Shown here one piece after another: positions 18,094-22,406 of a stretch of DNA of 64,000 nt. The notes beneath the pieces were generated by a model. That model did not search any database. It had not been told where the DNA came from and saw nothing but the letters and a program-made list of their open reading frames with translations. The stretch comes from Fusobacterium varium (GTDB lineage Bacteria; Fusobacteriota; Fusobacteriia; Fusobacteriales; Fusobacteriaceae), in the NCBI GenBank assembly GCA_900637705.1, contig LR134390.1, positions 1,240,001 through 1,304,000 on the forward strand. Direction: 5' to 3'. Position 1 is the stretch's first letter. Each line of letters opens with the position of its first letter. Made by a program: the position numbers and the translations under genes.

Positions 18094-19031
18094 ATGGCAT
18101 ATAATTTCAAAAAGAAATGGAAAAACCTGAAAGACTTACTGGAGGACACAGAATGTGTGCAGGGTGTGGAGCGCCAGTAGCAGTAAGAGGAGTATTAAGA
18201 GCATTAAAAGAGGAAGATGAAGCAGTAATATGTAGTGCAACAAGCTGTCTTGAAGTATCAACTTTCCTATATCCATATACAGCATGGAAAGATTCATTTA
18301 TTCACTCAGCATTTGAAAATGCAGCAGCAACAATAAGTGGAGCACAAACTGCATATAAGGTATTAAAGAAAAAAGGAAAAATAGATGAGTCATATAAATT
18401 CATAGCTTTTGGAGGAGATGGAGGAACTTATGATATAGGATTCCAATCATTATCAGGAGCAATGGAAAGAGGACATGATATGGTGTATGTATGCTATGAT
18501 AATGAAGCATACATGAATACAGGTATCCAAAGATCATCAGCGACACCTATAGGAGCAGATACAACAACAACACCAATAGGAAAAGAAAGCGCAGGAAAGC
18601 CACAAGGAAGAAAAGATCTTACAGATGTAATATCAGCTCACAATGTACCATATGTAGCTCAGACAACATTTATGGGAAACTTTAAAGACCTTCATGAGAA
18701 AGCAGAAAAAGCAATCTATACAGAAGGAGCAGCATTCCTAAATATATTAGCCCCATGCCCAAGAGGATGGAGATATGAGGGAGAAGACTTGATGGAAATG
18801 TGTAAATTAGCAGTAGAAACTTGCTATTGGCCACTATTTGAAGTAATAAATGGAGAATGGAAATTAAGTTATAGACCAAAAGTAAAATTACCAGTAGAGG
18901 AATTTTTGAAAAAGCAGGGAAGATTTAAACATCTATTTAAACCAGAAAACAGACACATCATAGATAGAATTCAAAAAGATGTGGATTTGAAATGGGAAAG
19001 ACTTCTTAAGAGATGTGGAGAAGAAATTTAA
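18094..19031 (+). CDS. porB: 2-oxoacid:ferredoxin oxidoreductase, beta subunit (one frameshift)
   Basis: Beta subunit, which binds thiamine diphosphate and a proximal [4Fe-4S] cluster. The ATG at 18094 (MAYNF) has GGAGGAAAGG upstream, but the frame shifts in the five-A run 18109-18113. One added A gives MAYNFKKEMEKPERLTGG and joins the long frame. The thiamine motif is GGDGGTYDIG (~residue 110) with the companion DNEAYMNTG, and cysteine ligands include MCAGCGAP at the N-terminus. About 312 aa, as usual for the family. A strong terminator follows, closing the operon that begins with ilvA. The break is most likely a sequencing error. Confidence 0.92.
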
Positions 19032-19070
19032 AAATAAAAATATTGTCTGCAAACAATAAACCTATATAGA

Positions 19071-19096
19071 AGAGCTACCTTTTGGTAGCTCTTTTG
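19071..19096 (+). terminator. terminator of the ilvA-porB operon
   Basis: Perfect arms AGAGCTACC and GGTAGCTCT around TTTT, followed by TTTTG. Confidence 0.92.
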
Positions 19097-19276
19097 TAAA
19101 AATTAACCTTATTTTTATTTATACAATAATATAAAATTTAATTTTTTGTATTTATTATATTTTATTAAGTAGTACAATTTTTTAAAATAATAGAAAAGTA
19201 AATATTTTTTCTTTAAACTTATTTAATATTTCTAATTGTTATTTTTCTATTTGTAGAAGAAAAGGATATAGAAAAG

Positions 19277-19306
19277 TTGATTAGAATATCCATTATGTGA
19301 TATAAT
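19277..19306 (+). promoter_or_regulatory. promoter driving the riboswitch-MATE transcript
   Basis: TTGATT (19277-19282), an 18-base spacer, TATAAT (19301-19306). Transcription would begin near 19313, just ahead of the structured leader. The stretch 19097-19276 before it holds nothing recognisable. Confidence 0.75.
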
Positions 19307-19320
19307 GGCAGAAGAATAAG

Positions 19321-19418
19321 TGAGAACCTGTAAGTCTGCCGCCGGGCAGAAGATGAATCAGGCGTTCAATTTCACATCTTTAGGCCTTAGTAGATGTGAA
19401 AAACTGAACGCTTTTTTT
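19321..19418 (+). promoter_or_regulatory. candidate guanidine-IV (mepA-type) riboswitch with overlapping terminator
   Basis: A structured leader directly ahead of a MATE exporter gene. GAACCTG (19324-19330) pairs with CAG-GTTC (19359-19367, GC bulged) and encloses the hairpin TCTGCC-GCCG-GGCAGA (19335-19350). A second hairpin, CACATCT/AGATGTG, has a loop with GGC that can kiss the GCC of the first loop. The 3' strand of the outer stem overlaps GCGTTCA (19362-19368), which alternatively pairs with TGAACGC (19405-19411) before seven T, a terminator. So the aptamer stem and the terminator are mutually exclusive, as in a ligand-ON switch. The class name rests on memory of the mepA motif and gene context; the switch-like architecture is seen directly. 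Confidence 0.6.
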
Positions 19419-19432
19419 ATTTGGAGGGAGAA

Positions 19433-20829
19433 ATGAAAAAAAATATAATGCTTAAATCTTTTATTAAATATGTAACTTTAAATGTAATAGGGATGATTGG
19501 ATTTTCCTGTTATATTTTGGCAGATACTTATTTTGTATCTAAGGGAATGGGGGCAAATGGTCTTACTTCATTAAACTTAGCTATACCAGTTTATACTTTT
19601 ATTAATGGAATAAGTCTAATGATTGGAATAGGTGGAGGAGCTAAATATGTACTGTTAAGTGCTAAAGGGGAAAAGGATAAAGCAAACACTATTTTTACAA
19701 GTTCAGTACAAGCAGGGATTTTATGTGGATTAGCCTTCTTAACTGTAGGAATATTATTAGGCAATAAAATAAGTTATATACTTGGAGCAGATAATGTAAC
19801 TTTTGCTATGACATCATTATACTTAAAAACTATTATGGCTTTTGCACCTTTTATTATTTTAAATAATATATTTCTAGTTTTTGTAAGAAATGATGGCAAT
19901 CCTAAACTTTCAATGTTGGGAATGCTTTTTGGAAGTTTTTCAAATATAATTTTAGATTATGTATTTATATTCCCTTTAAATTTAGGGATTTTTGGAGCAG
20001 CTTTTGCAACAGGATTATCTCCCGTGATTAGTATGATTATCTTATCAATATATTTATTAAAAAGAAAAAATCAATTTCATCTCAAAAAAGAAAAATTAAA
20101 TATAAAAGAGGTAATAAAACTATGTGGAACAGGAGCGTCCTCTTTTATAACTGAAATATCCTCTGGAATAGTATTAATAGTTTTTAATATGGTAATATTG
20201 AAACTTAAAGGAAACATAGGAGTCGCAGCATATGGTATAGTTGCTAATCTTGCTCTGGTAGTGATGGCGATATTTACAGGAATAGCTCAAGGAGTGCAGC
20301 CATTAGTAAGTAAAAGCTATGGAAATAAAGAGAAAGAACAACTTTATTATATTTTGAAATATTCAATATTTCTTTCTGTAACTATTGCTATATTAGTCTA
20401 TGGGATAGTATTTTTTTCAACAGATACATTAGTTTCTATATTTAATAAAGAAAAAATAAAGAACTTTCTAATCTAGCTGTGAGTGGTATTCATATTTATT
20501 TTACTGGTTTTTTATTTGCAGGAGTTAATATAATATTATCTGTATTTTTTAGCTCAATGGAACATTCTAAAACAGGATTTATAATATCAATTACAAGAGG
20601 ATTTGTAGCTATAGTTCCAGCAGTATTACTGTTATCATATATATTTGGAATGACAGGAGTATGGCTATCTTTTCCAATGGCTGAAATATTTGCATTATTT
20701 TCAGTAATTTATTTTATCTATAGCAATAGAAGTTTTTTAAAAATAAATTTAAGCAAGGAACTGTCATACTTCATAAATACTCTAAAGAAAATATTTAAAA
20801 GAAAAGAAGCTGCTCAAAGTAATGATTGA
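19433..20829 (+). CDS. MATE family efflux transporter under riboswitch control (one frameshift)
   Basis: Inner-membrane multidrug/toxin exporter of ~466 residues with about 12 helices, resembling the MepA branch (CYILADTYFVSKGMGANGLTSLNLA near the N-terminus). The frame breaks in the six-A run 20451-20456; one more A joins the two parts, giving NKEKNKELSNLAVSGIH. The ATG at 19433 has GGAGGGAG upstream and is better placed than the TTG at 19421. The leader carries a riboswitch-like element with a terminator, so expression is probably switched on by a small molecule that the pump exports, plausibly guanidine (inference). It is the last gene before a convergent AbgT transporter. Confidence 0.88.
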
Positions 20830-20864: not shown

Positions 20865-22406
20865 TTATAAGAAATTTGTTGTACCAAATCCTATTGGTAA
20901 ATTGAAAGTAATCCATATTCCAAAGAAGATGATACTTGAAACAAGAATAGTTATTGCATGAGGTATCATATATGTAATGAGATCCCCAAGGCCAAATTTT
21001 TTATTGTATTTATTACAGTAAATTAATATAAGAGCAAAATAGCTCATAAGAGGTGAAATTACATTTGTAGATGAATCTCCTAATCTATAAGCTAATTGAG
21101 CTAATTCAGGAGATATTCCCATTTTGTGAAGCATAGGTAAAAATATTGGAGCTAAAAGAACATATTTACTAGTCATAGACCCAATAAATAAATTAGCAAA
21201 AGCACAGAAAAATATAAATGCAATAATTAGTGGAATTCCAGTAAGTCCTACTTTAGAAAGGAATTTTCCTCCTTCAGCTGCAATAATAGTTCCTAATTGG
21301 CTATACGCAAACCAAGAAATAAATATAGATGAGAAGAAACATAAAACTATAAAAGCACCAAAACCATCTAATGCTTTAAATAATAAAGACATTAAATCTT
21401 TATCGTTTTTAATTTTACCAGCTGCAACACCATAGAATAATCCTGGTATAAAAAAGATAAAACAAATTACAGGAACTATTGCTGATAAAAGAGGACTCCA
21501 GCCTAAAAGAAGAAGACCAGTGTTAGGATTTCTTAATGGTCCCCATGATGGAATTGATAAGAGTGCAATTATTGCAAATGAAACAACAAATCCAATGGCT
21601 GCAAATTTAAGACCTCTATCCTCTTCAGGACTCAAAGAAGTTTCAAAATCTTCTTCAACTTCTTCTTCTGGTAAGAATTCATTTAGCTTAGGTTCAATAA
21701 ATTTATCATTTACGAAAGCTACAATGAAAGTGATAAAAATGTAAAGAAAAACATAAATATAGAGTTAGCAAGAGGAGTAACCACATATGAAGAATCAACA
21801 ATACTAATAGCAGCAGTGGAAAGTCCTCCTAAAAGTGCATCTATAGAAACAAGACAAGCTGCAAATCCAGCAGAAGTAGCACTGAAACCTAAAAGTATAC
21901 CAGCTATTGGATTTCTTTTTAATTGTTTATATAAAATACCAGCTATTGGGACAATAAGAACATATCCTATATCACCAGCAAATGATGAATTGACTCCTAA
22001 GAAAGCAATGAAGAAAGAAACATATTTTCCATTTATTTTTTCATAGCTTTTTTAGAAAACTAGGGAATAAACCTACTTCATTTAAAAAATTAAAAAACAA
22101 TGAAAAGAAAAGAACTACTCCTAAAGGTTCAAATGATATAAAGTTTTCAACTGCTGATTCAAATATCCATCTTATTCCTTCTGAATCTAAAAGATTTTTC
22201 ACTGCAAAAGTTTTTAATTCTATTGCTTTAGTAGAACGATTTATGGTTTCTATTTCTACTGATATTCCCATTTTTGAAAGAATAACAGATAATATAGCAA
22301 TAGTAATTGAGAAAATAATAAAGATGGTTACAGGGTGGGGAAGTCTATTAGCGATAATAGCTATTTTTCCCAGAATTCCCTTTTTGTTCAAATTTGTTTC
22401 TGACAT
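20865..22406 (-). CDS. AbgT family transporter (three frameshifts)
   Basis: Inner-membrane transporter of the AbgT/MtrF/YdaH family, which handles p-aminobenzoyl-glutamate or exports sulfonamide-like compounds. The N-terminus shows the family pattern NRLPHPVTIFIIF, and the middle has GDIGYVLIVPIAGILY. The C-terminal half carries GSMTSKYVLLAPIFLPML and YRLGDSSTNVISPLMSYF, both hallmark motifs. Reading the 514-residue frame needs one base added in each of three runs, 22048-22053, 22036-22041 and 21735-21739. All three are one-base losses, so the gene is probably intact. Its promoter is overlapped by an operator-like repeat. No aminobenzoyl-glutamate hydrolase genes lie next to it. Confidence 0.88.

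Follow-up and report, generated by a model that had tools for sequence, protein, structure and literature searches.

Which signal, if any, is read by the leader that stands in front of a MATE efflux transporter gene in Fusobacterium varium? The gene is located on contig LR134390.1 in a stretch of 64,000 nucleotides (positions 1,240,001 to 1,304,000), referred to here as the window and numbered from its first letter; folding places the leader at 19325-19415, directly 5' of the gene. By comparison with validated RNAs this leader is very probably a guanidine-IV (mepA or GGAM-1) riboswitch working as a transcriptional ON switch. A first-pass annotation of the window had named this class, and the assignment is now backed by the gene contexts (MATE, Gdx/SugE-type SMR and B3/4), by covariation of the kissing loop and by the retention of most of the required bases. 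The ligand, the ON direction and the export of guanidinium by the pump are presumably those of the validated relatives, from which they are carried over. The leader is a well-supported further member of a published class, in a phylum from which the class has already been reported, and it is perhaps contained in the published alignment.

Guanidine-IV RNAs consist of two hairpins whose loops kiss as a pseudoknot; the second hairpin is a terminator, and the RNA acts as a guanidine-dependent ON switch (PMC12186494, PMC7736828). The phyla in which the class occurs include the Fusobacteria, and its downstream genes comprise sugE, the most common one, and MATE genes (PMC7736828). In addition, the B3/4 (CtdA) proteins are described as controlled by guanidine-I and guanidine-IV riboswitches (PMC11477304); another paper speaks of two classes of guanidine riboswitch (PMC10018355).

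Two hairpins and a kissing loop

The leader forms two hairpins, P1 and a strong intrinsic terminator. Its minimum free energy (MFE) is -35.7 kcal/mol compared with -21.2 ± 3.0 kcal/mol in dinucleotide shuffles (z = -4.9), and none of 200 shuffles folded as well. The terminator stem described by the first-pass annotation (19362-19368 with 19405-19411) was recovered exactly as written, the MFE fold extending it by 19360-19361 with 19412-19413. Furthermore, the GCC of loop 1 (19341-19343) is complementary to the GGC of loop 2 (19383-19385); a kissing of these loops had been proposed, and the kissing pairs indeed covary among the relatives.

In an alignment of nine sequences, which was fitted to the helices so that helix counts lean in their favour, 19 of the 28 pairs are changed on both sides and 95.4 % of the cells are paired; this was reached by none of 500 shuffles, and slid structures pair at 35-49 % only. 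The kissing loop is the fairer test because it was left out of the model. It is paired at all three positions in all nine sequences, the outer pair changing between G-C and A-U. Further elements have U-A (Collinsella) or G-U (Monoglobus) as outer pair and U-A (Enterococcus faecalis) or also U-G as third pair, and the C-G pair is invariant among the elements.

Relatives and their gene contexts

Leader DNA with 87-90 % identity is present in three of 11 other genomes of the genus, each time directly 5' of the MATE orthologue. In these sister leaders the stems change compatibly and the loop-2 stretch UUUAGGCCUUAGUAGAUGUG is identical. The MATE homologues that are closest outside the phylum, those of Acetoanaerobium (51 % identity), of Monoglobus and of two enterococci of a plasmid collection, have the same two-hairpin leader. 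The Bacillota too contain elements linked to MATE genes. A MATE leader of Limosilactobacillus is similar in appearance, yet it was missed by the covariance models. Inspection of the sequence upstream of the Fusobacteriota MATE paralogues (30-38 % identity) revealed no element.

A covariance model built from six MATE leaders (R1) was run over 98 Fusobacteriota genomes and recovered three copies outside its training set. One of them, in another Fusobacteriota genus (genome G092, 62 bits), ends about 37 bases upstream of a gene for an SMR protein of 106 amino acids and has the same GCC-GGC kissing loop as the window. The nearest solved structures of this protein are the SMR structures 6wk5/8vxu (E about 1e-31, versus about 1e-11 for EmrE), and its top NCBIfam model is SugE, with a score below the cut-off. 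The SMR proteins of 6wk5/8vxu presumably include the guanidinium exporter Gdx-Clo. The second copy (G027, 43 bits) lies ahead of a DUF6485 gene and the third, in a sister species (G001, 31 bits), ahead of a gene with a B3/4 domain. A model built from nine sequences (R2) added another DUF6485-linked copy in a further species of the genus as well as a low-scoring copy (22 bits) ahead of a B3/4 gene of Collinsella. One match of R1 (L053) and one of R2 (L079) look like false positives and were rejected.

The element does not accompany every gene of these types. It was found neither at the B3/4 paralogues of the source genome and the sister species nor at the second SMR gene of G092, and no match was obtained at the SMR genes of E. 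faecalis, Paraclostridium and Listeria in the plasmid collection. A DNA search of the plasmids with the leader was equally empty, and a scan of genome contigs with the MATE alignment yielded one Deferribacteraceae locus only, which was of no use.

Some of the relatives deserve mention in their own right. In the B3/4 leader of Collinsella aerofaciens (L074, 1066-1155) the kissing loop is UCC-GGA, which adds a third type of outer pair. In Acetoanaerobium noterae (L069, 694-3708) the element heads a cluster of three genes on its own strand, namely the MATE gene, an open reading frame (ORF) of 240 amino acids and a B3/4 (CtdA-like) gene; the middle ORF carries a CxxxxFCPIG-like cysteine motif and is perhaps a candidate radical SAM protein. 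A guanidine-IV-like element precedes a small cysteine-rich DUF6485 gene in two Fusobacteriota genera (L052, 1501-1836; L078, 1501-1832). DUF6485 was not mentioned in the literature searched, and it is a possible candidate for a new guanidine-related gene.

Required bases and points that weigh against the assignment

The leader was compared with the Lactococcus lactis and Clostridium botulinum RNAs by the base numbering in the papers, the offsets of which agree (66 to 71 and 72 to 77). The C. botulinum RNA kisses through the pairs A29-U72 and C30-G71, and both G71 and G77 are 97 % conserved (PMC11611296). Placed on the window, these positions are G19341-C19385, C19342-G19384 and G19390, the last one being the equivalent of C. 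botulinum G77 and L. lactis G72. Of the loop-2 bases essential in L. lactis, G66 (G19384) and G72 (G19390) are kept; U67 corresponds to C19385, and its partner G19341 is changed too. The resulting G-C at 29-72 is the same as in the double change A29G/U72C, by which kissing is restored in C. botulinum (PMC11611296). The window holds a natural G-C version of a kissing pair that was previously studied by mutation.

Some points weigh against a guanidine-IV riboswitch at this locus. A C stands at the equivalent of position 72, where U67 of L. lactis is 97 % conserved. Rfam 15 gave no match to the leader even at E values up to 10, apart from weak microRNA and small nucleolar RNA matches which are due to chance. 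Membership in the class was set by our own covariance models together with descriptions in published text. Finally, the MATE frame is broken near 20450-20476 of the assembly, leaving two ORFs.

As to Rfam, the covariance search that the first-pass annotation had named as a check was carried out and found nothing, but it proved uninformative: none of the relatives gave a match either, the guanidine-I, -II and -III models included. Since every relative was missed too, this copy of Rfam 15 evidently contains no model of the class, and the empty search says nothing on guanidine-IV and is no evidence against it. The frame break is likely to result from assembly indels because the neighbouring AbgT gene is also split. 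The MATE orthologues of three sister genomes are intact, with 438-450 amino acids.

Outer stem or kissing loop

The first-pass annotation had laid its emphasis on an outer stem which competes with the terminator. Such a stem does form, although its pairing differs slightly from the proposed 19324-19330 with 19359-19367: in prefix folds CCUG (19327-19330) pairs with CAGG (19359-19362) and UGAG (19321-19324) with UUCA (19365-19368). Every prefix fold from about 19363 to 19407 contains it, and it is lost by 19415 once the terminator closes. The postulated mutual exclusion thus holds, since both stems share bases within 19359-19368 and the prefix folds display the displacement of one by the other. 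Within the genus CCUG/CAGG is unchanged in four sequences, and three one-sided changes in sister species leave the outer stem pairable. All this would suit a riboswitch of the classic kind, with the outer stem as antiterminator in place of the kissing loop.

We regard such a design as unlikely. The complementarity between leader and linker is not significant when compared with shuffled leaders, neither in this genus (p = 0.08-0.11) nor in any of the more distant elements (p at least 0.2). The distant members of Acetoanaerobium, Monoglobus and E. faecalis possess a longer continuous P1 and no outer stem, and the published mechanism rests on the kissing loop. The mutual exclusion of outer stem and terminator is physically correct, but the emphasis placed on it is only partly supported. 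The complementarity is no better than that of shuffled leaders (p about 0.1), and this comparison lent no support to the outer stem as a conserved element of the switch. Judged from sequence comparison, it is the kissing loop that makes up the conserved switch. This loop and both hairpins are backed by the comparative evidence, and the outer stem may help locally.

For a guanidine-IV switch with the kissing loop at its centre the following course of events is proposed. Without ligand, the nascent leader would fold into the 19360-19413 hairpin followed by seven U, and RNA polymerase would stop 5' of the MATE gene. With guanidinium bound, the GCC of the P1 loop (19341-19343) would kiss the GGC of the second-hairpin loop (19383-19385) around the ligand; the rigid kissing complex would block closing of the lower terminator, and transcription would continue into the exporter gene. 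The short CCUG/CAGG outer stem of this lineage may in addition compete directly for the 5' strand of the terminator. An extended version, in which the guanidine-IV switch of the Fusobacteriota has gained a direct antiterminator (the outer stem) beside the kissing loop and controls extra guanidine-related genes such as DUF6485, appears rather improbable.

Guanidine-IV or Gd4v

A variant of the Gd4v type would share architecture and ON mechanism with guanidine-IV and respond to a ligand other than guanidine. Gd4v RNAs also precede MATE genes and are enriched in gut bacteria (PMC9788692), and the replacement of U72 by C in the window points in the same direction. Nevertheless, Gd4v at this locus is very unlikely. 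It never has G at D1, which is G19390 in the window (D1 being the equivalent of L. lactis G72 by elimination from the text), and it is never linked to sugE, whereas the Fusobacteriota relative with the GCC-GGC kissing loop precedes a SugE-type SMR gene. The phyla reported for the Gd4v alignment are Actinobacteria, Bacteroidetes and Firmicutes; Fusobacteria are not among them. The extra hairpin of Gd4v is absent as well: the 12-nucleotide loop is unpaired in the MFE fold, and the centroid allows no more than a weak pairing of 2 bp. Because the extra hairpin is missing, D1 is G and the SMR-linked relative shares the kissing loop, guanidine-IV is by far to be preferred over Gd4v.

That the strong terminator belongs to the upstream operon, which ends at 19031, or is a plain attenuator without ligand sensing is most improbable, as that operon has its own hairpin and T-run near 19070-19100 (identified by eye), a promoter-like site lies between operon and leader, and the loop bases are invariant in sister species while the stems vary, with loop-loop pairing that covaries across unrelated contexts.

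Promoter, regulated gene and neighbourhood

The leader is located between the upstream operon, the last ORF of which ends at 19031, and the ATG of the MATE gene at 19433 (Table 1). About 20 nucleotides 5' of the fold lies a promoter-like site with a predicted transcript start at about 19312-19314, coinciding with the left border (19313) chosen by the first-pass annotation. One match of such quality is also expected by chance in the region; the -35 and -10 elements and the stretch up to the aptamer are near-identical in the three sister species.

Table 1 Features of the leader and its surroundings in the window
Feature	Position	Strand	Evidence
Promoter-like site TTGATT-18-TATAAT	19277-19306	+	Consensus scan, 10 of 12 matches; TG ahead of -10
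Outer stem, 5' strand (UGAG 19321-19324 and CCUG 19327-19330; 3' strand 19359-19368)	19321-19330	+	Prefix folds
P1 hairpin of the putative aptamer, 6 bp, loop GCCG 19341-19344	19335-19340 with 19345-19350	+	Fold; covariation in nine sequences
Loop 1 kissing bases GCC (C. botulinum positions 29-31)	19341-19343	+	Pairs with 19383-19385 in every element
Intrinsic terminator, putative second aptamer hairpin	19360-19413	+	MFE fold; both stems covary
Terminator, lower stem	19360-19368 with 19405-19413	+	MFE fold
Terminator, upper stem	19370-19379 with 19392-19401	+	MFE fold
Loop 2 core GGCCUUAG with kissing GGC 19383-19385 and conserved G 19390	19383-19390	+	Spacing as in validated RNAs (PMC11611296, PMC7736828); kept across relatives
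Terminator U-run, seven T	19412-19418	+	Sequence
MATE efflux transporter gene, start ATG 19433	19433-20829	+	PF01554 and MATE NCBIfam matches

The matches to PF01554 and to MATE NCBIfam models confirm the exporter context that had been described for the leader. No SMR gene was detectable in the source genome, and since an SMR/Gdx gene does not show up there, the MATE pump may by analogy be the guanidinium exporter of the organism. The leader would link a MATE exporter of the Fusobacterium type to the detoxification of guanidine, or of guanidine derived from canavanine.

The adjoining gene of the AbgT family (20865-22406, minus strand) is also broken, its pieces matching profile positions 251-499 and 2-106. 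Elsewhere in the window, a thiamine pyrophosphate (TPP) riboswitch (RF00059, 45314-45412, 80 bits) is the sole Rfam match at gathering level.

Comparison with known systems

With the guanidine-I, -II and -III riboswitches the leader shares the types of gene and, by analogy, likely the ligand; unlike these classes, neither the window nor the relatives match the respective Rfam models. Gd4v is similar in its overall architecture and can likewise stand in front of MATE genes, but the window differs from it by the lack of an extra hairpin above the terminator, by the G kept at the D1 equivalent and by a relative tied to a SugE-type SMR gene. From the described guanidine-IV examples the window deviates in having G-C instead of A-U at the kissing pair 29-72 and a short P1 with an optional outer stem, and in place of the UGRAG that follows loop 2 in most MATE relatives from Bacillota it has AGUAG. 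It resembles the L. lactis sugE and C. botulinum mepA RNAs in these features: two hairpins, the second of which is an intrinsic terminator, a 3-bp kissing loop with an invariant C-G pair, a conserved G six bases past the kissing G, and a position upstream of a MATE/MepA-type exporter gene, with relatives ahead of SMR and B3/4 genes.
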